Assembly (NCBI RefSeq): GCF_013282215.1
Contig: NZ_CP048103.1
Coordinates: forward strand, 744,001 to 808,000
Reading direction: 5' to 3'
Source: Kroppenstedtia eburnea
GTDB taxonomy: Bacteria; Bacillota; Bacilli; Thermoactinomycetales; DSM-45169
DNA length: 64,000 nucleotides
The notes beneath the pieces are model-generated. The model ran no database searches, was not told the origin of the DNA, and was given only the letters and a program-made list of their open reading frames with translations. Each line of letters starts with the position of its first letter. The stretch's first letter is position 1. The position numbers were made by a program, and so were the translations under genes. This document shows positions 7,519 through 46,565 of the stretch, in pieces.

Positions 7519-7672
7519 CTCATGGTCAGAAGATCTTTAAGCCCCCGCTTTTTTCCGGAATCTCTTCATTTGACTTCTCTATTTTACTCCGAAATGTCCG
7601 GTTGGGCAAAAAGGATGGATTTTCTTGTTGCGACCTGTGGTACAATGTCGGCATGAAAAGGGGGTGATCCCG

Positions 7673-8533: not shown

Positions 8534-8582
8534 GGTTATTCTCCATTTGGCAGGATATCATCAGAGGGTCTGGGGAGGATGT

Positions 8583-9404: not shown

Positions 9405-9426
9405 CCGAGGAGGTGGAGTCAACAGC

Positions 9427-12774: not shown

Positions 12775-12836
12775 CTGGGTTACACAGAGTGTGAAAAAGG
12801 ACGTGTGTTTGGCCAAGGTTAAGAGATCCATTAAAG

Positions 12837-12866
12837 AAGGCATCGCCTTCATCGAGGCGATGCCTT
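12837..12866 (-). terminator. terminator of the amidase gene
   Basis: A 12-pair stem AAGGCATCGCCT/AGGCGATGCCTT just past the stop codon of the minus-strand amidase gene. The T tract on that strand is short (TCTTTAA). Confidence 0.7.
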
Positions 12867-12879
12867 GGGGGTTGTTTGA

Positions 12880-15800
12880 TCAGTTTTTCACCAGTCGCAC
12901 TGCATCGGCGACCACAATGCCGTCCGCATGGTCGGAGAGGACGACCTTGCTGACGGTACCCTGGGCGAAGTTCCAAGTCCCGAGGTAGACCCATTGTCCG
13001 CCGCCGGAGCGTTGATCGACCCGTTTCACCGTTTTGCCCCCTTGATGGTGGACGGTATAGGGGGCGTCGGTGGCCCGGTCTTTGTAGTCCAAGTATTTGA
13101 CATAAACCTTGTAGGAACCACTCTCGGGGATGTTCAGATTCCAGGTGAAGGTATTATCTCCGGTTCCTTTGTAGTCATACTGATAGTCGGTGCCTTCATA
13201 TCCGGGACGGTTAGTGGAGGGCTTCCATGCTCCGACTCCCACATTGCCCGGGTCCCTGTTGTCACTGGTGACGGTGACCGGGGCCTGTTCCAGCTTGATT
13301 GCATCAGCGACCACAATGCCGTCGGCGTTGTTTGAGAGAACGACTTTCCCTGCTCCTTGGTTAAAGGTGTAGGTTCCCAGCTCCACCCAAATTCCGCCGC
13401 CGGTGCGTTGGTTGACCCGTTTCACGGATTCACCGTTTTGATGATGGATGGTGTAAGGAGCATTGGTGGCCCGGTCGGTGTAGGAAAGATATTTGGCATA
13501 CACTTTGTAGGATCCGGTTTTGGGCACCTGGAAATTCCAGGTGAAGGTATGGTTTCCGGTTCCTTTCTGGCTGTATTGGTAGTTGGTCCCCTCGTAGCCT
13601 TTCACGTTGGAGGAGGTTTTCCAAGTGCCGATTCCCTCGTTGCCGGCATCGGTGTTGTCACTGATCACCATGTCAGGGACCCGTTCGATCAGGATGGCGT
13701 CAGCGACGACGATTCCGTTGGCTTGATCGGAGAGGACGACTTTCCCCGTGCCTTGGGCAAGATTAAAGGTACCCAGTGCCACCCATTTATCGCGGTGAGT
13801 GGTGGTCCGCTGATCCATTTTTTTGACCGTCTGACCGTTTTGGTGATGAACGGTGAAAGGGGCGTCGGTGGCCCGGTCCGTATGGGGTTGCCAACGGGCG
13901 TAGAGCTTGTAGGTCCCGGTTTCCGGAGCGTTCAGATTCCAGGTGAAGGTGTTGGCCCCGGTTCCTTTATGGCTGTAAATGTAGTCGCTTCCATAGTAGG
14001 TTTTCTGGCTGGTGGAGCTCTTCCAGGTGCCGGTTTTGCTCATGCCGCTGTCCCCGTTGTCAACGATTTTCATCCCGTCCACCTTTTCAAACTGGACAGC
14101 ATCAGCAATGACATAGCCATCCGCCTGATCTGTCAGCTTCACCTTGGCCGCTTTCCCTTGCTGGAAGGGGAAGACCCCCAGTTCCACCCAGTTGCCGCCA
14201 CCGGAGCGTTGGTTCACCTTTTTGGTGTAGGAGCCATTGGCATAGGTGACAGTATAGGGAGCATTGGTTGCCCGGTCCGAATATGAACTGTAACGGACGG
14301 TGACCCGGTAAACCCCGGTTTCCGGCGGCATGAAGTTCCAGGTGAAGCTGTTGGCGCCGGTCCCTTTGGCATGGGTTTGGTAGTTGGAACCGTAGTAACC
14401 GGGGGCACTGGTGGATTTTTTCCATGTGCCGACCGTCGAGACGTAGCCGGTGTCCGTGTTATCAATAATCAGTTTGGAAGGCTGCGGGTTGGAATTCAGT
14501 TTTTTCAGCTGGATTCCGTCAGCGATCACGTAGCCGTCAGCATCATCGGTTTGCACAATTTTGTTGGCCCCGGAGTTAAACTCATACGCACCGATATCCA
14601 CCCATTGGCCGCCGTTTACCTGTTGGTTCACGGTTTTTGTCACTTCGCCGTTCTTGGTGTGGAGGATGTATGGTGCATTCGTGGCCCGATCGGAAGCGGA
14701 GGTGTAGTGAACAAACACCTGGTAGGTACCCGCTTCGGGCAGATTGAAGTTCCAGGTGAAAGTATCCGGTGCGATCCCGAGGAGCGCTTTGTCATTGGCT
14801 TGGTAGTTGGAGCCGTAATATCCGGGTACATTGGTGGAGGTTACCCAGTCGCCTTCAGCCACATGGTCGGGATCGGCATTGTCCAGGGTGATCGTTTTAC
14901 TGTCCTCATTCATCTTGCTGTTTACACTCGTTCGAATGTTGGGCAAGTCCGCCTTGACATAACTGCCGGGGCAGGAGGTGCTGGCCCGGGGCAACTGCCC
15001 GTGCCCTTGGATCGTGGCCACGTCGCGGTCTGTTTTCGGAACACTGGGGTTGTCGTAGGGATAGTTACGGACAAAATCCGCCTTGCTCCGGGGATCGATC
15101 CCGTGCAGATCTGCCTGGTAGGCCAACATGTCGACCATCGCACTGCGCATTTTTGCCGGCAGTTTCATCTCACTGTAGTTTCCCAACAGGGAAATGCCAA
15201 AAGTGCCATTATTGAAGGAGAAGGCGTGTGCCCCGACAACGCCGGGAGTGAGGACATCCCCGTCTTTCCCTTTCCGTCCTTCATAGATGCGACCGTCACT
15301 TCCAACAATGGCGTTATATCCGATATCACCATAGCCTCTCGTCTTGGCGTGGTAATAATAGATGGACCGGATGCGGGCGGCGGGGTCCGGCTCGTTGTTG
15401 GGTGTGTCGGTATGGTGGACGACCAGGTGAGTCACCTTGGAGGCATACTCCCGGGGCCAGTCTTCTTTCCCATTGATATAGCGCAGAGATTCGTCGGCTC
15501 CCCACTCCGCACGGCTCACCACCGGCGGACGGTTGATCACGGCTTCCGCCTTGTCCGCAATCAGGGAGCCGAGAGAGACGGAACCTTTTGCCGGGATTTT
15601 TTCTCCATCTTCGGAATTGAGAAAGGTCACCTTGACATCCTGCAAGAGGGCGTCAGCATCTTCACCGGGCTTAAAAACCGCCTTGTATTGGAGATAGCGT
15701 GCATGATCCGCCACGATCAGATTGCTGAACAGCTCCGGAGTCTGCAGATCATCCCGTCCCTCGTTGGGGTCGGCACTGACCGCTTCCCACCCGGTCCAAT

Positions 15801-16182
15801 TTTCCTTGTCTTTGGAAGTGCGGACATAGAATTGAACCCAGTCATTGGGGGAAGTGTCCTGAACCGGACGGGTGCCCTCTTTCCAATGGACAGCTGCATC
15901 AGTAAAAGGGAAATCAGACTGGATGATGGGAGAGACGTATTCTGAAGACTTCTTCTCATCCTCCATGGAAAGGACGGCCTTCTGTCCCTTCTGTGTCAGA
16001 TCCAGGTTTTTTGTTTTCCCCTTGGCGAAATCGGCGGGTGTTTGATGATGGACCTCATCCGCCATCACTTTGACCGCAGTGGGCTTGGCCCAAGAAGCCG
16101 GGACGATCGGAATGGATAGGAGCAAGAGAAGAGCGATAACTCCGAAAAGCGTGACCAAAAGCTTGGGAGTAAAGGTTTTCAT
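12880..16182 (-). CDS. secreted PGRP-type amidase with five golvesin-like C-terminal domains
   Basis: An 1100-residue exported protein. Residues 1-32 are a signal peptide ending PASWA. A region of about 180 residues without a clear match follows. About 218-420 is an N-acetylmuramoyl-L-alanine amidase/PGRP domain: SRAEWGADE, the zinc histidine in LVVHHTDT, GYNAIVGSDGRIYEGR, and the second histidine and cysteine in GHGQLPRASTSCPG, all intact. From about 430 five repeats of about 130 residues follow, each with xxDNxDxG...TW..S....YYGS(D/N)Y...FTWN...G.Y.VY..Y...DRAT(N/D)APYT..., the golvesin C-terminal-like domain. Likely a cell-wall or spore-cortex hydrolase with a carbohydrate- or surface-binding tail. 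RBS AAAGGAGT. Confidence 0.92.
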   Translation of the reverse strand: MKTFTPKLLVTLFGVIALLLLLSIPIVPASWAKPTAVKVMADEVHHQTPADFAKGKTKNLDLTQKGQKAVLSMEDEKKSSEYVSPIIQSDFPFTDAAVHWKEGTRPVQDTSPNDWVQFYVRTSKDKENWTGWEAVSADPNEGRDDLQTPELFSNLIVADHARYLQYKAVFKPGEDADALLQDVKVTFLNSEDGEKIPAKGSVSLGSLIADKAEAVINRPPVVSRAEWGADESLRYINGKEDWPREYASKVTHLVVHHTDTPNNEPDPAARIRSIYYYHAKTRGYGDIGYNAIVGSDGRIYEGRKGKDGDVLTPGVVGAHAFSFNNGTFGISLLGNYSEMKLPAKMRSAMVDMLAYQADLHGIDPRSKADFVRNYPYDNPSVPKTDRDVATIQGHGQLPRASTSCPGSYVKADLPNIRTSVNSKMNEDSKTITLDNADPDHVAEGDWVTSTNVPGYYGSNYQANDKALLGIAPDTFTWNFNLPEAGTYQVFVHYTSASDRATNAPYILHTKNGEVTKTVNQQVNGGQWVDIGAYEFNSGANKIVQTDDADGYVIADGIQLKKLNSNPQPSKLIIDNTDTGYVSTVGTWKKSTSAPGYYGSNYQTHAKGTGANSFTWNFMPPETGVYRVTVRYSSYSDRATNAPYTVTYANGSYTKKVNQRSGGGNWVELGVFPFQQGKAAKVKLTDQADGYVIADAVQFEKVDGMKIVDNGDSGMSKTGTWKSSTSQKTYYGSDYIYSHKGTGANTFTWNLNAPETGTYKLYARWQPHTDRATDAPFTVHHQNGQTVKKMDQRTTTHRDKWVALGTFNLAQGTGKVVLSDQANGIVVADAILIERVPDMVISDNTDAGNEGIGTWKTSSNVKGYEGTNYQYSQKGTGNHTFTWNFQVPKTGSYKVYAKYLSYTDRATNAPYTIHHQNGESVKRVNQRTGGGIWVELGTYTFNQGAGKVVLSNNADGIVVADAIKLEQAPVTVTSDNRDPGNVGVGAWKPSTNRPGYEGTDYQYDYKGTGDNTFTWNLNIPESGSYKVYVKYLDYKDRATDAPYTVHHQGGKTVKRVDQRSGGGQWVYLGTWNFAQGTVSKVVLSDHADGIVVADAVRLVKN

Positions 16183-16199
16183 GGCAGACTCCTTTGACT

Positions 16200-16662
16200 A
16201 ATTTGATAGTGGAAATGCTCGTATTCTTTTATTCGAGAGCGGAGTCCCCTTTGATGCCCTTTTCGACCAAAAATATTCTATTCATCTATTTTTCAAAAAA
16301 AGATAGCCTATGTGAACTAGTACTATCTTGGATGTGGACGATAACCGGGCATTTGGAGCCTGTTCCCACAGGTGTTCGACCGCTGTCAGTCCTTTCAAAG
16401 TAAGAATCAAGGCAGTAAAAGGTCGGTGACTTCCTTTTTTTAATCCATTTTCTGTCTGTGGAGGTCTAGCTGCAATTTTTTTATAGATGAAAAGGAGGAG
16501 AAATAAATCCTTTGTCGTATTAAATGTTCTGCAGGTATAATTTTCATTTTTATGAAGAGAAAATTATACTTGATTATTTCAGGTATGGAGGCGATCTGAG
16601 ACAACCAAATCTACAACGGTAACGGTCCTGAAAAGAAAAAGACGAGAGGAGAAACAAAACGC
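16200..16662. promoter_or_regulatory. AT-rich divergent intergenic region with a perfect inverted repeat
   Basis: This gap of about 460 bases lies between the amidase gene (leftward) and the rhs gene (rightward). GTATAATTTTC (16535-16545) is matched exactly by GAAAATTATAC (16559-16569) with 13 bases between. The arm includes TATAAT, so the dyad may be an operator over a promoter of the rhs gene. Nothing else clear is seen; the ORF 16194-16403 lacks support. Confidence 0.5.
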
Positions 16663-19600
16663 ATGACACCCCATCTACTGAAAAAATGGTCCTGGATTTC
16701 CGTGCTGGTCATCATCGCTTTAATCGGAGCTACGCTGTTGCCGGATTATGCCGAGGTTTATGCAGCGGAAAAAGCAAGACAGGAACAGTTGAATCAGAAA
16801 CGCGAAATTGTAGAACTGCGCACGGAAAATTCCAAAACATACATCAAGGGCGACAACACATATATGTTGGAACAGTACCTGGAGCCGATTCATTTCAAGG
16901 AGAAGGGCACCTGGGAGGAAATTGATAACGGAATTGCAACCGTTTCTTCCACCCAAGCTTTGGATTCGGAGCTTTCCTATCAAAATAAAGCCAACCGCTA
17001 CCGGGCCGGCTTTGCACCTCACACCGGGGCGAAGAAACTCCTCCGCTTTCAACTGGGCTCCGCTTCCGTTGATTTAGGGCTCGTGGATGGGAAAAAGGTG
17101 AAGGCCGAGAAAAAAGGAAACCGGATTGCCTATAATCATGTCTATCCCGACACCCACTTGGTCTACTACACAGATCACAACGGTGTCAAAGAAGAATGGG
17201 TCCTCGACCGCTACCATGGGCAGAACAAATTGACCATGACCCTGGACACCCAAGGCGTGGAAGCGAAAAAACAGAAAGACGGCTCCATCGACTTCGTGGA
17301 TTCCAAGGGGAAAGTTGCTTTTTCCGTTCCCCGACCTTTCATGGTGGATCAAAATCTCCGCTATTCCGGAGATGTTCAATTCCAGATCCGGAGCAAGGAA
17401 AATAAAACCTACCTCGATCTGGAACTGGATGAAAAATGGTTGCAAGAAAAAGAGCGGGCCTTCCCTGTGACAGTGGATCCGTCACTGGTGGTTCAGGGAA
17501 GTGACAAAGCCCAAGACACCTTTGTGGGGGAGAAACAACCGACGACCAACTTCGGTACGGTCACTTACTTCACCGTGGGGAACAACCCTGATCATGGAAA
17601 AAGCCGGGCCCTGCTGAAGTTTGATCTGCAACCGCTGTTGAGCAGTGCTACCATCACGTCGGCCAAGTTGAGTGTTTATCAAACCAACACTTCAACCAAG
17701 GCGGAACGGGAGAATCTTCACCCGATCACGGAGAATTGGTCCGAAACCACGGCCACCTGGAATAAACAGCCTGCCGTCGGTACCGCTATCTCCAATCAGA
17801 CAGTGACAGATGCCGGCTGGTACGATTTTGACCTGACTTCCCTGGCCCGGGACTGGTACACCGGAAAGACCGCCAACCACGGGGTTTCTCTCCGTCATGC
17901 CACGGAAACCAACGACCGCAAGTCCTACTATTCCAGTGAGTTTGCCAATTACGAAGGCACCCGGAAGCCGAAGCTGACGATCACCTATACGATCGATCCC
18001 TTGGGCCAAGAGGAGTTCTGGACCACAGCCGCTTCCAATGTGAACACGTATAACGGAAACTTCTTTTTGCAGGAAACGGATATGAATATTCCGGGTCGAG
18101 GTATTCCCGCCGAAGTCAGCCGGGCCTATAACAGCCGTTCCATGGAAAGTGGAATCTTCGGCCATGGCTGGACCAGCAATCTGGAGCAACGGATCACGGA
18201 CCACGGCCAAGGTCCCCTGCTCTACACGGATGAGGATGGTACCACCCACACTTTCATTCCTAACGGGGACGGGACCTATACCGCTCCGCCGGGGAAACAC
18301 TTTGAGCTGACAAAAAAGAGCGGCTACATCTTGGAAGATACCGATCAGACAAAGTACCAGTTCAACACCTCCGGTCGCCTGATCTCGATCACGGATTCCA
18401 ACAACAATAAGACGACCATCGGTTATACCGGGTCCAACCCGACCAGCATCACCGATGCTTCCGGACGAAAAGCCAATCTGAGCTATAACGCGGACAACCG
18501 GGTCACTCAAATAACCGATCCTGCCAATCGCAGCACAGAGTATACTTATGATGCCGCCGGCAACCTGAAAACGGTGACGAAGAAAGAGGCTGGCGGGAAA
18601 GTTTTGTCCACGGTCACCTACGGATATGGTGACGGGCATCGTATAACATCAGTCAAAGATCCCAATGGAAACGTAAGAACCGTCGAATATGACAGCGAAG
18701 ATCGGGTGAAAAAGCTGTCCCAACCCTTAACGGTGGACGGGCAAGTGAAGACTGCCACCACTACATTTGCGTACGATGGGACTCACCGGATCACCACGGT
18801 CACCGATCCCAAGGGAACGTCGACGGTCTACACCCACAATGAATACGCCAATGTGATTCAGATCACCCAGGATCCCAACGGTCTCAACTACAAACAGACC
18901 TTTGTCTATAATGATCAAAACGAACTGGTCAGTCAAAAGGATGCCAACGCCAATGCCAAGGGCAGCAATGCCACGTATAATTACACTTACGATGGCAACG
19001 GCAACCTGACCAGCGTCACCAATCCGCTGAATGAGAAATCGACCACGGAATACGATGAAAACAACAATCCGATCAAGGAGACAGATCCGGAGGGAAACAC
19101 CACCGTCAATGAATACGATGACGAAGGGAACCCGACCTCCAGCACCGATCCGGCGGAAAAATCCTCTGCCACCAAAGTGGATGCTTATGGAAATGTCATC
19201 GAAGAGACCTCTTCCATGAGTCCAGGGGACAACCTGGCCCGCAACGGCAGCTTCGAGATCGACCGGAACAATGACAATTGGCCCGATGACTGGTACCAAT
19301 GGACTGAAAGCGGGGCCAACAAGGTGACCTGGACCAACGGCGGACTGACCGTGGACGGAATCACCCTGGGCGATAAACGGATCCAAATCGTCAGCCCCGG
19401 AGAGGATACGCTGATCGGGAGCAGCAAGTTTATCCCCTATGATTCCAAAAAGGCCTATTTTGTCAGTGGTTTTGTCCAAACCGCCAATGCCAAGGGAATC
19501 GCCGGAATTCAGGCCACCGGCTATGATGAAAATGGCAATATCACCAAACGGATCAAGTCCAAGGAGCTCAGCGGTACCCACAGCCCCACCCGGCTGCATG

Positions 19601-22299
19601 TGGCGGTGGAACCCGAAGCCTTCCCCCAAGAGACCACCCGTTTTCGGGTCCGGGCCTACGCATTTGGGAAGAACGGCCAATTTGACGGCACCTATCGCTT
19701 TGATGGATTGCAAGTGGAAGAAGGCTTTTATGGTGCCTACAATATCCTTGAAAACGGAGACTTTGAACGGAACGACGATCCCGTCGATGACATTCCGGAT
19801 CGCTGGTACCTGGCGGGAAGTATCGAAGGTCCCGATGGTCTGGACAGCACAGAGAAGCATGCCGGCAAACAGTCTGTGAAGCTGGTGGGGAATGTAGATA
19901 AGTGGAAGATGGTTCGCCAGGATGTCAAGCTGAAGGGAGAAGCAGGCTCCATCCTGACGGTGTCCGGGTTTTCCAAAGTGGATAAGCCCCGACCTGCCGG
20001 TGTCTATGGATACATCATTGAGACGTACCAAGGATCCACCCGTCAGGAAACCTTCACGCACAACTTCGACCGGACGAAGTCCCATGATTGGCAACATCGT
20101 ACCGCCCAACTGAAGACCACCAAGCCCTTTGACAATATCAAGGTCTTCTACGAGTACAGTGAACAAACCGGAAAAGCCTGGTTTGACACCGCCAAGGTGA
20201 TGGTGGGCTCAGTCCAAACGAAGAATACCTATGACACCAACGGGAACTACCAGACCAAGACCACCGACCCCCAGGGACGGGTCACGGAATCCGGTTATGA
20301 TACCGTGGGCAATGTCACCAGCGAGAAAAGAGGAGCAGATACCACCACCTTCACTTATGACGGTCTGGACCGCCTCACCCAGGTGACCGATGCCAAGCAG
20401 GGGGAAACCAGCTACCGGTATGATCCCAACGGCAACAAAACCCAGGTGACCAACGCCCGGGAAAAAACGACCACCTATGAGTACAATGAAATGGACGAAG
20501 TGCGGAAAATCACCGATGCACTGGGACAATCCGTTCTCTTCGCCTACGACCTGAACGGAAACCAGGCGAAAGTGACCCAGCCCAACGGTGACACCGTGGA
20601 GTATGGCTATGATGTCGTGAATCGGCCGACTTCTGTGTCCCACAATGGAACAAAAAAATACTCCTTTGCCTACGATGCCAACGGCAACGTGACCAAGGAG
20701 ACAGATGAAGCCCAAAACGAATCCACCACCTTCACTTACGACGATGACAACAAGCTGAAGACGGTGACTGAGCCGGGAAGCAACAAAACCGAATACACTC
20801 ACGACAAGAACGGCAACGTTACCCAACAAAAACTGACTGCAGGAAGCATGACCGTAACTCAGGGTATGGGTTATAATGAAGTGGATCAGCTCACCAAAGT
20901 CACCGAAAACGGCAAAAACCGCGCGATCTACACATACGATGAGAATGATCGCGTTGCCAGCCGCAAAAATGAAGACGGCACCGTCAGCCTTTTCAGCTAC
21001 AACGGCGCCGGCGATCTCACACAGCAGGTGGTTTTGGACAAGGGCGGGGAACAGCGGGAATCTTACACATACACCTACGACAACAAAGGCAACATCACCC
21101 AGGTGAAAGATTCCAAGGGAACCACCACCTACGTCTATGACGAGCTGGAACAGCTGGTCAAGGAAACCCAGCCTGACGGCACCGTCACGGAATACACCTA
21201 CGATGCCACGGGCAACCGGCTGACGAAGAAAGTGACCCAAAACGGCATCGCGACCACCACGAACTACAGCTACGACGATGCCGACCAACTGACCCAGGTG
21301 GACGGTCAGGCCCACACCTTTGACAAAAACGGCAACCTGACCCACGACGGCAAACGGACCTATGTCTACGATGCCGAAAACCGCCTGACCGCCGTCAAAG
21401 AAGGGGAGAAGACCCTCGCCTCCTTCACCTACCGGGCCGACGGCATGCGCAAGACCATGACCACCGGCTCCCAGACGCTCACGTTTCATTATGATGAGAA
21501 CAAGAACGTCACCTATGAGACGGATCAGAACCACCAGATTGTCGCCCACTACACCTACGGGGCCAACAACGAACTGGTCAGCATGACCCAAGGTGGGAAG
21601 ACGTACTACTACCAGACCAACTACCGGGGGGACGTAACGGCTCTCACCGACTCCACCGGAGCCGTCGTAGCAACCTATGAGTACGATGCCTTCGGGAATC
21701 TGCTGAAGGAAACGGGGACGGTGGAGAATCCGTATCGGTATGCAGGGTATCGGTATGATGAGGTCACGGGGCTGTATTATCTGCAGAGCCGGTATTACAA
21801 TTCGGAGACGGGAAGGTTTTTGACGAGGGATGTCTTCGAAGGCGTTGACACAGAACCACTAAGCCAAAACAGATATACTTATGGACATAACAACCCGGTA
21901 ATGAATACCGATCATTCCGGCTATGCAGTGCCTGTGGCTGTTATTGCTGCTTTGAAGTACTTAGCTACTGTAGCGGGATGGGCACTTGTTACAACAATAG
22001 CTGGATTGATAAAGGATACTCGCAGTATAAATCCCAGGAAGTGGGGAGCAAGGCGTTTCGCCAAAGATTTTGCCTGGAATTTTGTTTGGGGACTAGTGCC
22101 ATTCGGTGGTTTGAAAAAAATTAGACCTCTATGGCAATGGACCTATGCTGTTGCGTATTCTTATGGCCTGCGATTCCACCGGTGGTTGATTGGAAAACTT
22201 GCAACAGGCATTGTGATTGCTCGATTGAAAAGATATAGTGCTGTACAAGCATTTAAACGAGTTGTTAGAAATAAATTACTACGGTGGCGACGTCGGTAA
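16663..22299 (+). CDS. WapA-like Rhs/YD-repeat surface protein with C-terminal toxin domain
   Basis: An 1878-residue exported protein. An N-terminal membrane/signal segment (about 9-32) leads to a DNRLRE domain (about 280-430, AQDTFVGEKQPTTNFGT), a DUF6531 region (FFLQETDMNIPGRGIPAEVSRAYNS), many YD repeats (about 540-840 and 1190-1640), two NGSFE-type carbohydrate-binding-like modules between them, and the RHS core end ASFTYR..YYLQSRYYNSETGRFLTRD. After PVMNTDHSG (about 1752) comes a unique tail of about 126 residues, hydrophobic and strongly basic (ends NKLLRWRRR), the presumed toxin. Such proteins deliver the tail to neighbouring cells. Two small genes follow; one or both may give immunity. 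The start follows GAGAGGAG. Confidence 0.93.
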   Translation: MTPHLLKKWSWISVLVIIALIGATLLPDYAEVYAAEKARQEQLNQKREIVELRTENSKTYIKGDNTYMLEQYLEPIHFKEKGTWEEIDNGIATVSSTQALDSELSYQNKANRYRAGFAPHTGAKKLLRFQLGSASVDLGLVDGKKVKAEKKGNRIAYNHVYPDTHLVYYTDHNGVKEEWVLDRYHGQNKLTMTLDTQGVEAKKQKDGSIDFVDSKGKVAFSVPRPFMVDQNLRYSGDVQFQIRSKENKTYLDLELDEKWLQEKERAFPVTVDPSLVVQGSDKAQDTFVGEKQPTTNFGTVTYFTVGNNPDHGKSRALLKFDLQPLLSSATITSAKLSVYQTNTSTKAERENLHPITENWSETTATWNKQPAVGTAISNQTVTDAGWYDFDLTSLARDWYTGKTANHGVSLRHATETNDRKSYYSSEFANYEGTRKPKLTITYTIDPLGQEEFWTTAASNVNTYNGNFFLQETDMNIPGRGIPAEVSRAYNSRSMESGIFGHGWTSNLEQRITDHGQGPLLYTDEDGTTHTFIPNGDGTYTAPPGKHFELTKKSGYILEDTDQTKYQFNTSGRLISITDSNNNKTTIGYTGSNPTSITDASGRKANLSYNADNRVTQITDPANRSTEYTYDAAGNLKTVTKKEAGGKVLSTVTYGYGDGHRITSVKDPNGNVRTVEYDSEDRVKKLSQPLTVDGQVKTATTTFAYDGTHRITTVTDPKGTSTVYTHNEYANVIQITQDPNGLNYKQTFVYNDQNELVSQKDANANAKGSNATYNYTYDGNGNLTSVTNPLNEKSTTEYDENNNPIKETDPEGNTTVNEYDDEGNPTSSTDPAEKSSATKVDAYGNVIEETSSMSPGDNLARNGSFEIDRNNDNWPDDWYQWTESGANKVTWTNGGLTVDGITLGDKRIQIVSPGEDTLIGSSKFIPYDSKKAYFVSGFVQTANAKGIAGIQATGYDENGNITKRIKSKELSGTHSPTRLHVAVEPEAFPQETTRFRVRAYAFGKNGQFDGTYRFDGLQVEEGFYGAYNILENGDFERNDDPVDDIPDRWYLAGSIEGPDGLDSTEKHAGKQSVKLVGNVDKWKMVRQDVKLKGEAGSILTVSGFSKVDKPRPAGVYGYIIETYQGSTRQETFTHNFDRTKSHDWQHRTAQLKTTKPFDNIKVFYEYSEQTGKAWFDTAKVMVGSVQTKNTYDTNGNYQTKTTDPQGRVTESGYDTVGNVTSEKRGADTTTFTYDGLDRLTQVTDAKQGETSYRYDPNGNKTQVTNAREKTTTYEYNEMDEVRKITDALGQSVLFAYDLNGNQAKVTQPNGDTVEYGYDVVNRPTSVSHNGTKKYSFAYDANGNVTKETDEAQNESTTFTYDDDNKLKTVTEPGSNKTEYTHDKNGNVTQQKLTAGSMTVTQGMGYNEVDQLTKVTENGKNRAIYTYDENDRVASRKNEDGTVSLFSYNGAGDLTQQVVLDKGGEQRESYTYTYDNKGNITQVKDSKGTTTYVYDELEQLVKETQPDGTVTEYTYDATGNRLTKKVTQNGIATTTNYSYDDADQLTQVDGQAHTFDKNGNLTHDGKRTYVYDAENRLTAVKEGEKTLASFTYRADGMRKTMTTGSQTLTFHYDENKNVTYETDQNHQIVAHYTYGANNELVSMTQGGKTYYYQTNYRGDVTALTDSTGAVVATYEYDAFGNLLKETGTVENPYRYAGYRYDEVTGLYYLQSRYYNSETGRFLTRDVFEGVDTEPLSQNRYTYGHNNPVMNTDHSGYAVPVAVIAALKYLATVAGWALVTTIAGLIKDTRSINPRKWGARRFAKDFAWNFVWGLVPFGGLKKIRPLWQWTYAVAYSYGLRFHRWLIGKLATGIVIARLKRYSAVQAFKRVVRNKLLRWRRR

Positions 22300-22382
22300 A
22301 AAATTGACTGTAATTTAAATACAGGTACTCACTTTAATTAGGCGTATCAGATAATTGATTAGCCATTTTTGAGTGAGGAGAA

Positions 22383-22460
22383 GGGTCGGGATTGGTGGGA
22401 CGGAGATCCTTTACGTTTTTTTGCGAGAGAATCTCTTTCGTCCCACCATTCTCGTTCCCA
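22383..22460. repeat. dispersed palindromic repeat, copy 2
   Basis: Starts GGTCGGGATTGG like the other copies. GGTGGGACG (22394-22402) pairs with CGTCCCACC (22439-22447). The stem has diverged from copies 1 and 3 but pairing is kept by compensating changes. Confidence 0.5.
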
Positions 22461-22566
22461 CCAACAATGTTTACTACAAATAGGGAAGTGAAAGGTTTGT
22501 TTCATTTCCAACGCCCATTTTTGATTAATCACAGTACTGGGTTCCAAGAAGGAAGAAGGGTGTATA

Positions 22567-22800
22567 ATGGGAGAATCAAAAAAAATGATCAAAGAAATAA
22601 TATCTATTCTTGGTTGGTATTTATTCTTGGTAATATTATGCAATTTTGTCTATCGAGATAGGGGGCTTTTAAATTATTTTAGCCCTTTGGTATTAGTCCT
22701 TGCTGTTAGATATTATAAGAATAAGTTGGTAGTTTTTTTAACAAAAATGGCTGTTTTGTTTGTCGTAATCTATTTTCTGTTTACACTATATTACTATTAG
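22567..22800 (+). CDS. small membrane protein, candidate immunity to the Rhs toxin
   Basis: A 77-residue protein with about three hydrophobic segments (IISILGWYLFLVILCNFV, YFSPLVLVLAVRYY, MAVLFVVIYFLFTLYYY). Much more AT-rich than the rhs gene. GAAGGAAGAAGGG precedes the ATG. As the first gene after the toxin domain it is the best candidate for its immunity protein; no family recognised. Confidence 0.6.
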   Translation: MGESKKMIKEIISILGWYLFLVILCNFVYRDRGLLNYFSPLVLVLAVRYYKNKLVVFLTKMAVLFVVIYFLFTLYYY

Positions 22801-22821
22801 TAAAAAGGGGATTGGCGAATA

Positions 22822-23154
22822 GTGGATTCAAAAGATGCCATTGTTGTAAATCCGGAAAGTCAGTATATCTATATTGATTTAACAGACAAGCAGATTGAAG
22901 AACTGATGATACAATTAACAGAAATGAAATTAAATGGGGAACATTTTTCTTGGAGCAATCAATTTAATGGGGAAAGTAGAATTGTTATTTATTTCCGAAA
23001 AGTAAGTCTCGGGAAAAATGGAGAGTTTCAACTGGATCAAGAGGGTTCTGAAAAAATTCATAGCTTTTCATTCCTTTTTGTTTTTGTTGTAATTTTGTCA
23101 ATGATAGGAGTGATAGCGGTGATCTACATGCTCTTTCATATATTACTACTTTAG
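22822..23154 (+). CDS. small protein with C-terminal membrane segment, clipped by an IS
   Basis: A 110-residue protein: a soluble part (IYIDLTDKQIEELMIQLTEMKLNG) and a C-terminal membrane segment (FSFLFVFVVILSMIGVIAVIYMLF). It starts at GTG 22822, 21 bases after the previous gene. The stop TAG lies in the first bases of the left inverted repeat of the IS4-like element (23152), so the native C-terminus may have been a little longer. Possible second immunity component. Confidence 0.55.
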   Translation: MDSKDAIVVNPESQYIYIDLTDKQIEELMIQLTEMKLNGEHFSWSNQFNGESRIVIYFRKVSLGKNGEFQLDQEGSEKIHSFSFLFVFVVILSMIGVIAVIYMLFHILLL

Positions 23155-24507
23155 ATGAGCAAAAGCGCACCAAGAAATTTCCATTGACAAAAAAACAGAG
23201 ACATGAACGGCTCTTTATGGTATGGATAGAGTCACCATAACACATCCACCAAAGGAGCCAAGATCATGTCTCATACTTCCAACTTACCACATCAGGATCC
23301 CATCCGCCATTATCTGAAGAAACAAAGGTACAACCTGTACCTTACCAAGCCTGCGTTTGAACATCTCGTCCATTTCATCGATGGGGCCACACAAAAAGGC
23401 TTCTCTGGGACGCTGACAGATGTGCACACGTTAAGTTGTGAACGTCGACACCGGACCACGTGGAGCCATTTCCTCACCCGGGGAGTCTGGGACGAACAGT
23501 GGATGCAACATCACCTGAGTCAACGATCTCTGCGTAAGATTCAAAAACACGCCCAACGAACCGGCCTTCCCATTTACGTCATTCTAGATGATTCCGTTTG
23601 CGAGAAAACCAAGCCTTCGTCACAGGCGGTGTCAGCGATTCAACCAGCCGACTTTCATTTTTCGCACGGCAAAGGGGGGCCGGTTTGGGGGCACCAGGTC
23701 GTGGTCCTGTTGCTTTGGTGCGGGGATCGCTGTCTTCCCTTCGCCTTTCAGCGTTATGACAAGGACGGAGTCAGCAAAATCGCCTTGACATGCGAACTTC
23801 TCGAATTGCTTCCGGCCTTTGAACATCCGGCGTATTTGTTGATGGACTCCTGGTACACCTCGGTAAAAATCGTCGATTGCGCTCCCACCAAAGGGTTGCA
23901 GGTCATCGGTGGACTTGAGACCCACCGTGTCTTGTTTCCTCTGGGCGTCCGGACCCCGGCCCCTACTTTCGCTGGTTACATCCGAAAAGCGGATACCCGT
24001 CTCGTGACGGTGGGACACGCTTCCTACCGGGTGTACCGCTATGAAGGGGCCCTCCATGGAATGGCAAACGCGGTGGCGCTTTTAGCATGGCCGGAAGAAA
24101 TGTTCGGAAAGCATCAAGCCCTTCGGTGTACCTTGTGCACAGACGCCTCCCTTCAGGATGAAGAGATTCTGGAGCGCTATGCGAACCGCTGGGCCATTGA
24201 AACGTTTTTTCAACAGATGAAGGGGAAGTATGCATGGGATCGTTACCGTGTCCGCTCCGTTCGTGCCATCGAACGCTTCTGGACTCTGGTATTTTTGACG
24301 TACTTCTATTGCGCCGAGACGGGAAGTGGTGACGAGTCGCTGGGTCTTCAGAGAATCCGTTCCAGACGGGAACACAGATTGGTTGATTGGATCTACCGTC
24401 AGTTCCAACAGGCGGTGCCACTGAAACAAGTGAAAGAGCAGCTCAACATCGCTTAGCCATGGTCTACCTTTCCTATGGTTATTTCTGTTAGCTGTTTTGC
24501 TCATCTA
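23152..24507 (+). mobile_element. IS4-superfamily insertion sequence, complete
   Basis: A 1356-base element. The 13-base terminal repeats TAGATGAGCAAAA (23152-23164) and its exact reverse complement (24495-24507) flank one transposase gene. No convincing target duplication could be read. It sits between the first rhs immunity genes and the next orphan module. Confidence 0.85.
23266..24456 (+). CDS. DDE transposase, IS4/IS701 type
   Basis: A 396-residue transposase. The DDE residues are visible as the D in VILDDSVCEK, the D in LLMDSWYTS and the E in YANRWAIETFFQQMK(G)KY, the Y-x-x-R-W-x-I-E motif of this superfamily. RBS AAAGGAG before ATG 23266. It appears intact. Confidence 0.88.
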   Translation: MSHTSNLPHQDPIRHYLKKQRYNLYLTKPAFEHLVHFIDGATQKGFSGTLTDVHTLSCERRHRTTWSHFLTRGVWDEQWMQHHLSQRSLRKIQKHAQRTGLPIYVILDDSVCEKTKPSSQAVSAIQPADFHFSHGKGGPVWGHQVVVLLLWCGDRCLPFAFQRYDKDGVSKIALTCELLELLPAFEHPAYLLMDSWYTSVKIVDCAPTKGLQVIGGLETHRVLFPLGVRTPAPTFAGYIRKADTRLVTVGHASYRVYRYEGALHGMANAVALLAWPEEMFGKHQALRCTLCTDASLQDEEILERYANRWAIETFFQQMKGKYAWDRYRVRSVRAIERFWTLVFLTYFYCAETGSGDESLGLQRIRSRREHRLVDWIYRQFQQAVPLKQVKEQLNIA

Positions 24508-24842: not shown

Positions 24843-25973
24843 ATGACACATATTCAGGTGAAAGATTCCAAAGGAACCACCTCCTATGTCTACGACAAAC
24901 TGGAACAGTTGGTCGAGGAATCCCAGCCCGACGGCACCGTCACAGAATACACCTACGATGCCACGGGAAACCGGCTGACGAAGAAAGTGACCCAAGGAGA
25001 CAAATCTACCACCACGAACTATACTTACGATGATGCTGATCAACTGGCTAAAGTAAACGGACAGGCCTATTCCTATGACAAAAACGGCAACCTGACCCAC
25101 GACGGCAAACGGACCTATGTCTACGATGCCGAAAACCGCCTGACCGCCGTCAAAGAAGGGGAGAAGACCCTCGCCTCCTTCACCTACCGGGCCGACGGCA
25201 TGCGCAAGACCATGACCACCGGCTCCCAGACGCTCACGTTCCATTATGATGAGAACAAGAACGTCACCTATGAGACGGATCAGAACCACCAGATTGTCGC
25301 CCACTACACCTACGGGGCCAACAACGAACTGGTCAGCATGACCCGGGGCGGGAAGACGTACTATTACCAGACCAACTACCGGGGGGATGTAACGGCCCTC
25401 ACCGACTCCACCGGAGCCGTCGTAGCAACCTATGAGTACGATGCTTTCGGGAATCTGTTGAAGGAAACGGGAACGGTGGAGAATCCGTATCGCTATGCGG
25501 GGTACCGGTATGATGAAGTCACGGGGCTGTACTATCTACAGAGCCGGTACTACAACCCGGAAACTGGACGGTTTTTGACGAGGGATTCCTTTGAGGGGTT
25601 TGAGGATAAGTCGCTTGGTTTGAACAAATACTCCTATGTCCTAAACAACCCCGTTATAAATGTAGATCCTGACGGGCATTGGTTTAGAACCATCCGTGGT
25701 AATCGAGCCTACATGTATTTCACCAAATTCGAAGTAAAGAGATTCATCAAATATTTAAAGTGGGGAAGAAAGGGTATAAAGGCTTTGGGTTGGCTCTTAA
25801 ACTTTTGGTTGCCGGGAGCATTTGTAGTTGCTAGGATTGTTAACCTAATTCTGGGTGTGGGAGGAACCTATTTAAAGTGGGCCTCCAAACGGAAAGGGAT
25901 TATTGTCAAATTCAAAAGGGTGAAAAAGGGAAAATCTTACTTTTACCCATACGCAATATCAAGGTGGAGATAA
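24843..25973 (+). CDS. orphan RHS core with alternative toxin tail (CT2)
   Basis: 376 residues that start inside the YD-repeat region and are almost identical to the C-terminal core of the main rhs gene (homology from about 24855, equal to 21102). After VINVDPDGHW the sequence is unrelated: about 100 residues, hydrophobic with basic ends (WGRKGIKALGWLLNFWLPGA, then KFKRVKKGKSYF). No signal peptide and no clear RBS, so it is probably a silent cassette that could be swapped into the full gene. Two membrane-protein genes follow. Confidence 0.8.
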   Translation: MTHIQVKDSKGTTSYVYDKLEQLVEESQPDGTVTEYTYDATGNRLTKKVTQGDKSTTTNYTYDDADQLAKVNGQAYSYDKNGNLTHDGKRTYVYDAENRLTAVKEGEKTLASFTYRADGMRKTMTTGSQTLTFHYDENKNVTYETDQNHQIVAHYTYGANNELVSMTRGGKTYYYQTNYRGDVTALTDSTGAVVATYEYDAFGNLLKETGTVENPYRYAGYRYDEVTGLYYLQSRYYNPETGRFLTRDSFEGFEDKSLGLNKYSYVLNNPVINVDPDGHWFRTIRGNRAYMYFTKFEVKRFIKYLKWGRKGIKALGWLLNFWLPGAFVVARIVNLILGVGGTYLKWASKRKGIIVKFKRVKKGKSYFYPYAISRWR

Positions 25974-26048: not shown

Positions 26049-26390
26049 GTGAAGAAAATTTTTTTGTCTTTAGCAAACATTTTCATGTATACATTAGGAT
26101 TTTGGTTTGTCTCCAATATTATCCTTTTTAAAGGATTGGGATTGATCGATAAGGAGATAAATATAGTTTACTTGATTTTGATTGCCACTATGTTAGTTAT
26201 TATCGGGGGTATTTACAGCATAAGGAAGGAGTGGTTTGAAAAAAAGATGGAATGTTTTTTTGAGAGAATAGAGGATACAAAGTGGAATACTCTTTTTTTG
26301 TGGGGATTTATTTTTTTTCTTGGACTCTCGGTCATTTTAATTTTTGTTTTTATTTTATCATCTATGTATTCCCTATATAAAATATTCTGA
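26049..26390 (+). CDS. membrane protein, candidate immunity to CT2
   Basis: A 113-residue protein with about three transmembrane segments (N-terminal ANIFMYTLGFWFVSNIILF, VYLILIATMLVIIGGIY, TLFLWGFIFFLGLSVILIFVFIL). AT-rich and with no recognised family. It follows CT2 directly, the usual immunity position. GTG start after AAGGGTGATATAAGG. Confidence 0.55.
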   Translation: MKKIFLSLANIFMYTLGFWFVSNIILFKGLGLIDKEINIVYLILIATMLVIIGGIYSIRKEWFEKKMECFFERIEDTKWNTLFLWGFIFFLGLSVILIFVFILSSMYSLYKIF

Positions 26391-26406
26391 TGGAGGGATA
26401 AAATGT

Positions 26407-26898
26407 ATGGAAATATTTCATTGGATCATGGCAATTGTAATCTTGATTATTATCAGTTTAATAATTGGGCTTTTCTTGATTGTAAAAATGGGGAAGAGGA
26501 TGTTGAGTGAATCAAACCCTATTGATTTGTACTCAGAGGATGAAATAGAACGTCTTCTAAGTAATGTTATGGATGAATACAGAGTTACTAATTTAAATCC
26601 GGAACTTGAGTCGGGTGAATTTATCAATGTTCATGTTGAGGTTCATAATACGGATCCGATGGTACTTAAGAAGGTATTTGCGGATGTTGCGCAAAAACAT
26701 AGCGAAAAATTTAAGGGTATTAACGTTTGTATCTCTAACAATGGTCAGTCTTTGTGCAGAGGTGTATACATTGGAGAAAAAGATGTGGTTTACAACATAC
26801 CCGATCTTGATGAAGAGAATAAGGAGTTACTCCTTGATCTATTGAATCGGGAAGGGATACCACAGTATCTGTTTCAATTGCTTAATCCAAATAAGTAG
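26407..26898 (+). CDS. membrane-anchored protein of unknown function
   Basis: A 163-residue protein: an N-terminal membrane anchor (HWIMAIVILIIISLIIGLFLIV) and an acidic cytosolic-type domain (SEDEIERLLSNVMDEYRV..DLDEENKELLLDLLN). ATG 26407 follows GGAGGG, 16 bases after the previous gene. Part of the CT2 module by position. Confidence 0.5.
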   Translation: MEIFHWIMAIVILIIISLIIGLFLIVKMGKRMLSESNPIDLYSEDEIERLLSNVMDEYRVTNLNPELESGEFINVHVEVHNTDPMVLKKVFADVAQKHSEKFKGINVCISNNGQSLCRGVYIGEKDVVYNIPDLDEENKELLLDLLNREGIPQYLFQLLNPNK

Positions 26899-27201: not shown

Positions 27202-27771
27202 AGTGGATCAGCTTACCAAAGTGACCGAAAACGGCAAAAACCGCGCGATCTACATACGATGAGAATGATCGCGTCGCCAGCCGCAAAAATGAAGACGGCA
27301 CCGTCACGGAATACACCTACGATGCCGTGGGGAACCGGCTGACGAAGAAAGTGACCCCCAATACTGTATGTTGACCCAAATGGAAATCATCCTGTTATTG
27401 CTGTAGCCTTGATGATTATCCGCTTCTCGGCACCTCTGCTAAGAAAATACGGGATGAAAGCCGCCCGAAAGGTTATCAACTATTCCGCTCGTTTGCTAAA
27501 ACATTATAAGAAAAACTACACTATCCGCTACGGGTATGGAAATTCATTGGTTCAAATAATAAAGAAGAAACCTAAAAAGGGAGAGGATGCACGTATTTTC
27601 TCATTGGATTATCATAACCTCCCCTTAGTAACGAAAAAGGGGAAGAAGCTAAATAAAGGAAGAAAAGTATTTCACTATCACCTTAAAAATCCCGCAGTAC
27701 ACTATGTGTTCAGATGGTCAATTCCCAAGGGATATTATTTGCCTAAAAATAGGAATTACCGATTTGCGTAG
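27201..27771 (+). pseudogene. rearranged RHS fragment joined to toxin tail CT3
   Basis: 27201-27300 matches the main rhs gene at about 20876-20980, then jumps to sequence matching 21183-21240; a missing base breaks the frame (CTACATACGAT for CTACACATACGAT). After a second junction near 27360 a new frame reads YVDPNGNHPVIAVAL and continues to 27771. This tail of about 135 residues is basic and hydrophilic (KKNYTIRYGYGNSL, KVFHYHLKNPAVHYVFRWSIPKGYY) with several His and Tyr that could be catalytic, as in RNase-type CT toxins. No start or RBS is seen, so it is a silent cassette. Confidence 0.7.
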
Positions 27772-27852
27772 GGTTATTAAATCTATTGCCATGGGTATTC
27801 CCATGGCAATAGAAATTCATTATATGATAGATATTTGAATGGAGGTAATTAA

Positions 27853-28560
27853 ATGGATTCAATTGAAATTAGGCATTCCATTTGTAAGAGTCATTTATCT
27901 AAGGGGAAGTCTTTAAAGGAAATAATTGAATCAAATGCTATTCCTGCCTGTTCTATGCAAAGTGATGATCGATATATTATTGAATGTGGAGTGACTCAAT
28001 CCCTACATCTACGTAGTACAAGTCCAACTCAGCCCATTCGCTTTTTTCCCAAGTTTTTAACAGATTGGAACTTATTTCCGATATATTGCTTGCTTCGTTG
28101 GCCTTCGGGGTTGTTTTCTACATTGGATTTTATAAATGAATTGAAACAAAAGGGGATAAAATTTGAAATTTTGGATATAAATCATCAATTTATTGCCCGT
28201 ACAGATAAATTGAAAGGGGATTTAAACTTTTTGTTGAGAGTAGAGAACGGAAAAAGTTTGGATTCCATTTTCCAAGATTATTTTTTCACGATTGCATCAA
28301 TCAATGATTTTATTGGATTTTGGCTAGGGGAAATTCCTTGCTTTTCATGGTATAAGGGAAATCAATATGATTCATACAATCGAGATCCTAGAATTTTGGT
28401 CGATTTTCGGCATTTTTTTGCTACAATTGAGTTTGATGCAGATGGTATTGCACTTTTCCACAAAAGTGAGTTATTAACGTTTGATAAGATAAAAAGTCGA
28501 TTGAAGAGTTTTACTATCGAAGAGTTCATTGAAGAAGGTTATTCATGTTGTTACAAATGA
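27853..28560 (+). CDS. putative soluble immunity protein for CT3
   Basis: A 235-residue protein without membrane segments or signal peptide, AT-rich, preceded by TGGAGGT. No family recognised. It follows the hydrophilic toxin tail CT3 directly, where Rhs immunity genes sit; its size is typical of SMI1/SUKU-like immunity proteins, but I cannot show membership. Confidence 0.6.
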   Translation: MDSIEIRHSICKSHLSKGKSLKEIIESNAIPACSMQSDDRYIIECGVTQSLHLRSTSPTQPIRFFPKFLTDWNLFPIYCLLRWPSGLFSTLDFINELKQKGIKFEILDINHQFIARTDKLKGDLNFLLRVENGKSLDSIFQDYFFTIASINDFIGFWLGEIPCFSWYKGNQYDSYNRDPRILVDFRHFFATIEFDADGIALFHKSELLTFDKIKSRLKSFTIEEFIEEGYSCCYK

Positions 28561-29173: not shown

Positions 29174-30585
29174 GGCTATGTCCCAAAAATCGTGGAAATT
29201 GAAAGTGGCGGTCTCCTAAACCGTTTGGTATAACGGTGGTGGACAAACCAAGAAGGAGAAACCGCCACTATGAAAAGCTTACACGAAAGAGAAGGAAAGT
29301 TCCAGAACGATACGATTCAGCTTTCGCTGACGCAGATCATGGAATCGGCGAAAGAGGGATTGCTGGCATTGGCTGTACAAACTGGGCTCCAGGTGTTCCA
29401 AGCCATGATGCAAGAGGAGGTCACCCAGCTGGCGGGGCCCAAGGGAAAACACAACCCGAATCGAAAAGCGGTTCGGCACGGGGTGGAACAAGGGTCTGTT
29501 GTTTTGGGAGGACGAAAAGTTCGGGTGGAAAAGCCCCGGGTTCGTTCTGTGGAGGGAGAGGAACTTCACTTGGAAGTGTATCAAGTGTTTCAAGATCCTT
29601 CTCTGCTGACCGATGCTGCGCTGGAACGTATGATCCACGGATTGTCCACACGAAACTATGAACAGGGCCTGGAGCCGACAGGTGTGGATGGGAAAGCAAG
29701 TTCCACCAGCAAAAGTACGATCAGCCGTCGCTTTGTGGAAGGAACCGGGAAAAAGCTGGCCGAGCTCCTGGGACGTCGTCTGGATGACCGACGGTATCCC
29801 GCTTTGATGATCGATGGCGTTGTCATGGCGGATCACACCGTGGTCGTGGCTCTGGGGGTCGATGAGGAAGGAAAGAAGCACATCCACGGGCCTTTGGGAA
29901 GGAGCGACCGAGAACGCCCCAGTTTGCAAGTCTCTTCTTATGGATTTGGTGGATCGCGGACTTTCAACAGACCGTGGGATCCTGGTCATCATTGACGGGA
30001 GCAAGGCTCTCCGTTCCGCCATCCGTGATGTACTCGGAAAGCAGGCGGTCGTTCAACGATGTCAAGTCCATAAGCTACGAAACGTTCTGGATCACCTTCC
30101 AGAGCGGGAACGGGGCTGGGTGGAACGAAAGATCAAGGAAGCGTGGAGACAGCCGGATGCAGACAAAGCCCATCGCGCTTTAAAGCGGCTGGCCAACCAG
30201 TTGGATGAGGTGCATCCGGGGGCCGCGGCCAGCCTTCGGGAAGGCATGGAAGAGACGTTGACTGTCATCCGTCTGGGTTTGTCCGAGCTTCTGCAAACAA
30301 CCCTGAGATCAACCAACGCGATTGAATCCGCTTTTAAGACCGTGCGGGACGTATCCCGGAATGTGAAGCGCTGGCGTAACGGTCAACAGGTGCTACGCTG
30401 GTCTGCCGCCGGTTTATTGGAAGCGGAGACCCGTTTTCGGAGGATCAAGGGGTACCGTCAACTTCCTCTGTTAAAACAGGCACTGGAACAACACATCGAC
30501 AGCGAACCAAAGGAAAATAAGCCCATCACCGCGTAAAACAGCGAAAAAGGCCGTCACGAAAATCTACGACGAGTGGGACAATCCC
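29174..30585 (+). mobile_element. IS256-family element, copy A
   Basis: Left end GGCTATGTCCCA and right end (reverse complement) GGGATTGTCCCA agree at 9 of 12 positions, imperfect inverted repeats typical of IS256. It appears identical to copy B (38964-40374) except for one altered site at about 29885 that adds a base. The right end abuts IS630 sequence. Confidence 0.85.
29270..30536 (+). pseudogene. IS256-family transposase, frameshifted
   Basis: Same MULE-type transposase as the intact one at 39013-40278. At 29881-29890 the sequence reads CATCCACGGG where copy B has CATCCTGGG, a net gain of one base that breaks the frame after about 205 codons. The N-terminal part could still be made. Copy B could supply transposase in trans. 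Confidence 0.85.
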
Positions 30586-41465: not shown

Positions 41466-41469
41466 TAGC

Positions 41470-41577
41470 TATATATTCAACATTGAGTTCCCCGGTTATA
41501 TAGAAAGTATTCGTGAGTTATTAACAGTTTCGATGGGCTTTTTTGTTATTTTTATTGTTATGAAAAACAAAGAATAA
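41470..41577 (+). pseudogene. 3' fragment of a membrane protein gene cut by IS630
   Basis: The open frame after the IS end reads YIFNIEFPGYIESIRELL then TVSMGFFVIFIVMKNKE and stops at 41577. It looks like the end of a small AT-rich immunity-type gene and could be the other half of the gene truncated at 29173, but the frames cannot be joined with certainty. Confidence 0.4.
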
Positions 41578-41633
41578 AATCTATTTCAAAAGTACCTCAA
41601 TGCATATTTTAAAAAATTTCTTTTTCAATTCTA

Positions 41634-42455: not shown

Positions 42456-42547
42456 TTTGTAGTAGTATAGTAATGCTTGCTGTAATTTTACCCCCTAACT
42501 AAATTTGAAAACTATTAGAAGCGTTGTGATTTAGTGCGCTCCAAGAC

Positions 42548-43267: not shown

Positions 43268-43290
43268 TATGAGATAATGCTCAAACCTTT

Positions 43291-46548: not shown

Positions 46549-46565
46549 GTTTGGCGACAAGGACA

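Follow-up and report, generated by a model that had tools for sequence, protein, structure and literature searches.

The stretch of DNA analyzed here, a window of 64,000 nucleotides from Kroppenstedtia eburnea (G000:C1:744001-808000; genome size 3.56 Mb), harbors the gene of a large Rhs/YD-repeat protein, followed by two small open reading frames (ORFs) and an insertion sequence (IS). Our subject is the variable C-terminal tail of the Rhs protein, termed tail A, together with the two small ORFs. The original prediction, made from the letters alone, had viewed the tail as a membrane-active toxin paired with membrane immunity genes, and its description of the locus proved accurate with respect to ORF positions, tail size, and neighbors. 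The features concerned are the following (aa, amino acids; TM, transmembrane; MFE, minimum free energy):

16663-22299, + strand: Rhs/YD-repeat protein of 1878 aa with CBM96/DNRLRE, DUF6531, RHS repeats, Rhs_assc_core, and a variable tail

21919-22299, + strand: tail A, the variable C-terminal tail of 126 aa (glycine plus 125 aa; coding part 21919-22296), proposed membrane-active toxin

22370-22480, + strand: strong hairpin between the tail A stop and the first small ORF (MFE -45.8, z -5.05)

22567-22800, + strand: 77 aa protein with two TM segments by hydropathy, which moves with tail A; accessory or co-immunity candidate

22822-23154, + strand: 110 aa protein with a soluble part and one C-terminal TM helix; main immunity candidate

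23150-24507, + strand: IS with a DDE transposase (ORF 23266-24456) at the 3' end of 22822; edges approximate

Family scans of the 16663-22299 product identified the RHS/YD repeats, DUF6531, and the Rhs-associated core that characterize WapA-like secreted Rhs polymorphic toxins, and its N-terminus, basic and then hydrophobic, resembles a Sec signal as judged by eye rather than by a predictor. The core motif GRFLTRD stops at position 21831, and a linker ending in DHSG precedes tail A. The 125 residues of the tail comprise 25 K/R, but only 2 D/E, and 20 aromatic residues; 56% are hydrophobic, and the best 19-residue hydropathy mean is 1.91, in line with the earlier description of a very basic and hydrophobic tail of about 126 residues. 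Neither tail A nor 22567 nor 22822 gave a significant match in Pfam, NCBIfam, PADLOC, or PHROGs, and the same held for tail A and the 22822 profile among PDB sequences, a search from which 22567 was left out. As a control, the Pfam scan recognized sibling tails as DUF6973 (E 2.6e-33) and, just under the cut-off, as phospholipase A2 (PLA2; E 4.7e-7). The toxin-domain profile searches thus returned no nuclease family for tail A, as had been anticipated, and set it apart from the classic tRNase and nuclease tails of WapA; the label of a bacteriocin-like warhead found no sequence support in Pfam, NCBIfam, or the other family scans. Several marginal similarities were put down to chance or to hydrophobic composition. 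They link 22822 with Lipocalin_7 (E 0.019) and with a phage structural family (E 0.035), members of the tail family with DUF7862 (E 0.049) and with Sds3 (E 0.1), the tail profile with cytochrome b (E 0.11), and tail A with 2kzv (E 0.25).

The strongest evidence on how these genes belong together comes from genome G204, the sole other genome of the same genus in the searched sets (hereafter the sibling), two contigs of which were aligned to the window. Contig 5 of the sibling is collinear with window positions 12825-21831 at 98.6% identity, up to the end of GRFLTRD, and then switches to a different tail, tail G; in the window, tail G is an orphan at 42 kb (41644-43962, 97%), while in the sibling it sits on the main Rhs gene. 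Conversely, tail A, 22567, and 22822 minus its last three codons (window 21432-23145) form an orphan on contig 31 of the sibling at 95% identity, and the orphan slot of the window (41370-42055, 99.7%) bears tail E in the sibling. The two close genomes hence hold three tails (A, E, and G) at different positions, main gene or orphan slots, and their sequences part at the core end (window 21831 and 41370-43962; L032, L072), which amounts to the tail replacement at the core/tail junction and the orphan cassettes downstream that are expected of a WapA-like Rhs locus. Since the sibling keeps tail A and both small ORFs together as an orphan while its main gene bears tail G, the three are one moving unit, an exchangeable cassette, and its exchange probably proceeds through recombination within the repeated core. 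At its 3' end, 22822 meets the IS edge, such that the window protein ends in HILLL and its sibling counterpart in HILLAS. Both small ORFs look coding in comparison with the sibling, with ratios of nonsynonymous to synonymous substitution (dN/dS) of 0.25 for 22567 and 0.22 for 22822 on just 6 and 13 changes. A third candidate ORF at 22392 is disrupted by indels relative to the sibling. The hairpin at 22370-22480 occurs as one copy in the genome, is nearly identical in the sibling, and has no Rfam match; it may decouple toxin from immunity expression or may be the remnant of a mobile element.

Tail A is not an isolated sequence. Three further distinct tails, E, F, and H, are 23-35% identical to it, and the four form a family, with pairwise E-values of 3.7e-7 (A-E), 1.5e-6 (E-F), and 6e-13 (E-H) versus 2.8e-5 for the best of 40 shuffled sets; the all-against-all tail comparison is noisy, shuffled sets yielding 12.7 matches per run at E <= 0.05. 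A class-wide single-sequence search with tail A touched 32 of 398 genomes at E <= 0.1, including the sibling (E 2.6e-78, with 4.3e-4 for its tail E); beyond the own genome and the sibling, the best E-value was 0.0013, and many of these matches carry stops. Profile searches with the tail family returned as strong matches only the profile's own five rows, from 4 genomes, and no new member (in one of these searches, among no more than 11 scored candidates per genome), and no relatives of tail A were found in viral contigs or plasmids. Two tails of genome G142 look like tail A by eye, the better one scoring 12.5 bits versus 14.7 for the best of 200 shuffled sets, and are not claimed as members.

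Comparing what follows these related tails allowed us to weigh the two small ORFs against each other. Both are small membrane proteins, as originally stated, with two TM segments in 22567 and one in 22822. In the AlphaFold2 (AF2) model of the latter, the last 20 residues form a helix with a predicted local distance difference test score (pLDDT) of 90-93, the remainder being of low confidence; overall, both AF2 models (tail A and 22822) are of low confidence. Immediately after tail E, without an intervening two-TM ORF, lies the gene of a 101 aa protein, which has an AGGAGG start site; another gene of the sibling connects this partner to 22822 (E 1.3e-28 and 1.5e-9, as against 1.1e-4 for the best shuffled match). 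Three ORFs come after tail F, one of 76 aa with two TM segments, one of 92 aa built like 22822, and a shorter one; judging from its sequence, the 92 aa protein is a probable relative of 22822. A profile of the 22822 type matched 7 of the 398 genomes at E <= 0.01. The matches in G000, G204, and G164 are partly due to construction, as these genomes contributed profile rows, and the weak ones in G087 and G126 carry stops and were not used; new and convincing are two places in G131 (E 1.8e-10 and 5e-8) and one in G293 (1.6e-7). In contig 15 of G131 and in G293, the 22822-type gene is preceded by a 59-60 aa TM ORF, both at contig ends that place any toxin out of reach. In G293 (L102, reversed, about 568-1078), this pair lies near genes that by eye are DUF72-like, permease-like, and 5'-nucleotidase-like, neighbors that resemble the genes at window 7625-10857, upstream of the Rhs locus. 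Charge complementarity between tail and immunity protein was considered as well, but the acidic heads of the 22822, G164, and G131 proteins (-6, -4, and -7) are accompanied by a charge of +2 in the tail E partner, and the argument was not used. Because 22822-type genes recur after related tails (clearly for A and E, probably for F), 22822-23154 appears, by sequence comparison, to be the more constant partner and a better immunity candidate than 22567 alone. Immunity through 22567-22800 alone, the gene that the original prediction had singled out, is unlikely in view of the 22822-type gene that follows tail E without an intervening two-TM ORF; its product may be an accessory or second immunity protein.

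The pairing of hydrophobic tails with TM neighbors extends beyond this family. Our survey of the order Thermoactinomycetales covered 61 core places in 20 of 42 genomes. A first search pattern gave 35 distinct tails, 31 of at least 50 aa, a wider one gave 43 places and the same 31 tails, and a looser one added L137 and L138 to make 33; loci L074, L140, L141, and L142 were left unparsed. Tails were classed as hydrophobic at a cut of 1.0 for the best 19-residue hydropathy mean, and a TM ORF was sought among the first two downstream ORFs, because the first one after tail A is spurious. Omitted were 11 of the 35 tails (short or no scored ORF), and the count excludes L136, which nearly duplicates tail G and has a transposase-like neighbor. 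In the 24 rows scored first, a TM ORF adjoined 17/18 hydrophobic versus 2/6 other tails (p 0.006); inclusion of the two late rows (L137 and L138) changed this to 17/20 versus 2/6 (Fisher p 0.028; rows not independent), the background rate of TM ORFs in the same loci being 0.37 at random positions and 0.33 on the antisense strand. The exceptions L137 and L138 combine a hydrophobic lead-in with a soluble, enzyme-like end and have neighbors devoid of TM segments; the third, L071, is a 56-residue hydrophobic tail lacking a TM neighbor. Soluble neighbors also follow the tail at window position 27409 (235 aa, no TM segment) and that of L069 (139 aa), and a soluble 220 aa protein lies some 600 nt from the PLA2-like tail of G038. 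The tail of L073 (reversed, 9289-9694) resembles phospholipase A2 (Pfam E 4.7e-7, just below the cut-off) and could represent an enzymatic form of membrane attack. By eye, other recurrent tails of membrane type seem to cross family borders (L165, L188, and L179 of other Bacilli families; window 42138-42455, L067, and L128), one kind having a C-terminal PRxGY/PxNGW-like ending and another being common to L128 and L179.

A second property shared across the order is positive charge. A net charge of at least +10 per 100 residues was found for 31 of the 33 order tails (16 genomes, including G000 and G204; the median is 18.2 for the first 31, 29 of which reach this value), the enzymatic DUF6973- and PLA2-type tails being likewise strongly cationic; the 27409 tail, severed from its core, is not among the 33. 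Outside the order, only 1 of 43 tails reached this threshold (L187, +20). This outside set is a sample and not a census, with phylogenetically non-independent rows and first 29 loci that were the best-scoring ones from few families: these loci and 20 regions gave 36 tails, 34 of them distinct, to which the looser pattern added 9 that were not de-duplicated, for a hand-counted total of 43. Before this addition the count was 0/36, and two open-ended outside tails (+10 and +8) were not counted. The charge is not a proteome effect, since the Rhs core of the window has -2.8 and its long ORFs a median of +1.8. Short hydrophobic tails, a class including some enzyme-ended ones, account for 24/33 in the order versus 7/43 outside. 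Basicity, which had contributed to the original assignment, is therefore rejected as a sign of membrane action, as 31/33 order tails are strongly cationic, enzymatic ones included. The simplest reading is that this lineage-wide charge, which came as a surprise, reflects a constraint of this Rhs lineage, perhaps in delivery. One may go further and view the Rhs system of the order as specialized as a whole, with many short cationic membrane-active tails of several unrelated families and membrane immunity, cationic enzymatic tails as well, and the charge as an import requirement, for example because the membrane potential drives self-insertion or because the tails bind wall polymers of the target; we consider this idea tentative and somewhat doubtful.

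The same charge could suggest that tail A acts on nucleic acid or ribosomes in the target cell, its TM neighbors then being exporters, anchors, or present by chance. One in five of its residues (25/125) is K or R, and the enzymatic tails of the order are equally basic. We nevertheless regard such an activity as improbable, considering that tail A matched no enzyme family in a scan that detects DUF6973 and PLA2 in siblings, that its TM neighbors exceed the background, and that its hydrophobic fraction is more than half.

Tail length raises a related question, namely whether tail A could be no more than a pre-toxin or translocation segment, deprived of an enzymatic domain that once lay downstream. 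In favor of this view, tails outside the order are roughly double in length (median 200.5 aa for the 34 distinct ones), and several tails, L137 and L138 of the order among them, have a hydrophobic lead-in before an enzyme-like end. Yet the segment is the final module in all five family sequences, no long open reading in any frame extends past the tail A stop, and the sibling has its stop codon at the same place. The dN/dS of the tail relative to the sibling is 0.32 on 8 changes, the cassette retains its downstream genes, and the neighbors of enzyme-ended tails are soluble whereas those of tail A are TM proteins. Loss of a domain is thus quite unlikely.

Membrane attack by tail A, with co-moving and membrane-bound candidate immunity, is in our view the best explanation of the sequence data and reasonably probable; we hold it most likely because of the TM-neighbor association, the exceptions with enzyme-like ends, and the helical models of tail A and the 22822 C-terminus. 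We lowered our estimate slightly when the looser pattern gave the above values of 1/43 and 17/20. According to this explanation, tail A would be the toxic part of a WapA-like Rhs protein that is secreted. Once delivered, the tail would enter a competitor's cytoplasmic membrane in the form of cationic, hydrophobic helices and dissipate the potential across it, through a pore or an ion leak. The producer would be protected at its own membrane mainly by the 22822-23154 product, with its soluble head and single TM anchor, while the two-TM hairpin encoded by 22567-22800 would perhaps co-protect. As to the original prediction, its membrane-directed tail, TM neighbors, and lack of a nuclease are backed by the cassette, the 22822-type partners with their independent homologs, and the pairing, whereas pore formation is something we only infer. 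The same data would fit a tail that hits a specific membrane protein or a lipid step of cell-wall synthesis, as some bacteriocins do, with membrane immunity shielding the target and no pore being formed: the anatomy cannot separate a pore from target inhibition, and contact-dependent growth inhibition (CDI) ionophores themselves use membrane-protein receptors, according to the accessible part of one report (PMC11630599). As tail A has no significant similarity to any described family, we consider this version unlikely.

A number of observations weigh against membrane attack as the function of tail A. Its hydrophobic peak is not remarkable, being matched by 11% of composition shuffles, and the amphipathicity of its modeled helices is reached in 52% of shuffles for helix 1 and 14-20% for helices 2-4. 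The AF2 prediction consists of four helices and nothing else, in keeping with the expected membrane-active tail, but the model itself is poor and of low confidence (mean pLDDT 50.8, predicted template modeling score 0.27). A glycine zipper is absent from tail A; other tails show zipper patterns (L066, L128, L165, L179, and L188 among them), but so does the enzymatic L069 tail. On the side of the partners, the similarity of the tail F partner to the 22822 family (best E 1.8e-4 to 2.9e-4) does not beat the best shuffled value of 1.1e-4, no 22822-type partner was detected for tail H, and homology between the two-TM ORFs of the various cassettes could not be demonstrated. The pairing, finally, depends on the cut (on the first 24 rows, p was 0.002 at 0.8, 0.006 at 1.0, and 0.12-0.36 at 1.2-1.6), its rows lack independence, and no scored ORF lies within 450 nt of 5 of the 23 hydrophobic tails, G and H included. 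Hydrophobic stretches also lead into enzyme-like tails (L137, L138, L184, and L187), and the DUF6973 tail, which is not a membrane tail, has a TM-bearing neighbor.

The Rhs array of the window continues downstream of the IS with the following features:

24843-25973, + strand: orphan fragment of a core plus tail B, which has 98 aa and is basic as well as hydrophobic

26049-26898, + strand: pair of ORFs following tail B, 26049-26390 with three TM segments and 26344-26898 with one TM segment plus a soluble part; putative immunity

27409-28560, + strand: contrast case, an orphan basic tail lacking a hydrophobic core (27409-27771); the protein encoded next (27853-28560) has no TM segment

41937-43925, + strand: orphan slot with tail G (42138-42455) and an 85 aa three-TM ORF (43668-43925); the sibling slot bears tail E

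Further transposases lie in or after the array at 29270-30536, 35914-37149, and 39013-40278 (Mutator type, the first in two overlapping frames, and one of DDE type). An Amidase_2 protein with Golvesin_C repeats is encoded at 12880-16182 on the - strand. Its gene and the Rhs gene diverge, and the sibling has both next to each other in collinear order; the protein is a possible wall-opening helper. A TPP riboswitch was identified at 46557-46665 on the + strand (65.4 bits, above the gathering score).

In titles and the beginnings of abstracts, with subscription papers mostly outside reach, we found no report of a membrane-active tail on a Gram-positive Rhs/WapA protein. The locus would thus represent new tail and immunity families of a known type of weapon, in a setting for which no report was found. 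If our explanation is true, the locus contributes a toxin family and a candidate immunity module of two genes, and the two genomes make a natural before-and-after pair for tail exchange. The positive charge shared by nearly all tails provides a concrete handle on tail entry into Gram-positive cells; should it indeed be an import requirement, entry of Gram-positive Rhs tails into target cells becomes testable.

How the locus relates to known systems can be judged from the accessible parts of the reports cited here. Under our explanation, tail A would act in the way of Tse5, CDI ionophores, or EsxX; its carrier and the orphan arrays place it with the secreted Rhs/WapA proteins of Gram-positive bacteria. 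The secreted WapA/Rhs proteins of Streptococcus suis are accompanied by truncated orphan duplications with toxin/immunity pairs downstream (PMC12704120); secreted Rhs carrier and orphan arrays are the same here, but the two tails described there are nuclease-like and tail A is not. Tox-WTIP, a predicted pore-forming tail of two membrane-spanning helices also found on Rhs proteins and listed for proteobacteria, has RxxR in helix 1 and Wx[ST]IP in helix 2 (PMC3482391), the latter motif being absent from tail A as read. The type VII secretion system (T7SS) toxin EsxX depolarizes membranes in a Gram-positive setting and is countered by soluble ExiAB and membrane-bound ExiCD acting in different compartments, immunity genes occurring in non-producers as well (PMC12744356). 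The candidate two-part immunity for one toxin in a Gram-positive host is similar, while EsxX differs in its LXG/T7SS carrier and in having a glycine zipper. CDI ionophores are polymorphic helical membrane toxins that have diversified into cognate pairs with small hydrophobic two-helix CdiI proteins (PMC11630599). A hydrophobic tail modeled as helices, with a small two-TM partner, recalls them by description. They are delivered by CdiA, and the second gene with head and anchor is a difference of the present locus; their five-helix bundle compares with four helices in the low-confidence tail A model. A pore-forming Rhs tail has already been demonstrated for a Gram-negative effector of the type VI secretion system (T6SS), Tse5 (PMC9637101), whose C-terminal tail in Pseudomonas aeruginosa (Tse5-CT; 149 residues, no predicted enzyme function) depolarizes cells (PMC9637101, PMC10684867). 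Tse5 is T6SS-delivered with a PAAR-like N-terminus, unlike the Sec-like N-terminus of the Gram-positive window protein, among whose nine Pfam hits at E <= 1 there is no PAAR domain; in place of the DPXGL-(18)-DPXGL autocleavage motif described for Tse5 (PMC9637101), it has TRDVFEG and TDHSG, with the two Asp 27 residues apart. Lacking the PAAR domain and the DPXGL pair, it is not a Tse5-type T6SS effector. No Rhs toxin was among the PDB-sequence hits of tail A, a set in which the presence of Tse5 was left unchecked, and no direct alignment of the two tails was made. What the two systems have in common is their build, an Rhs protein whose C-terminal tail is of comparable length, and a small membrane partner, 22567 here and there Tsi5, the immunity protein with likewise two predicted TM regions (PMC9637101).

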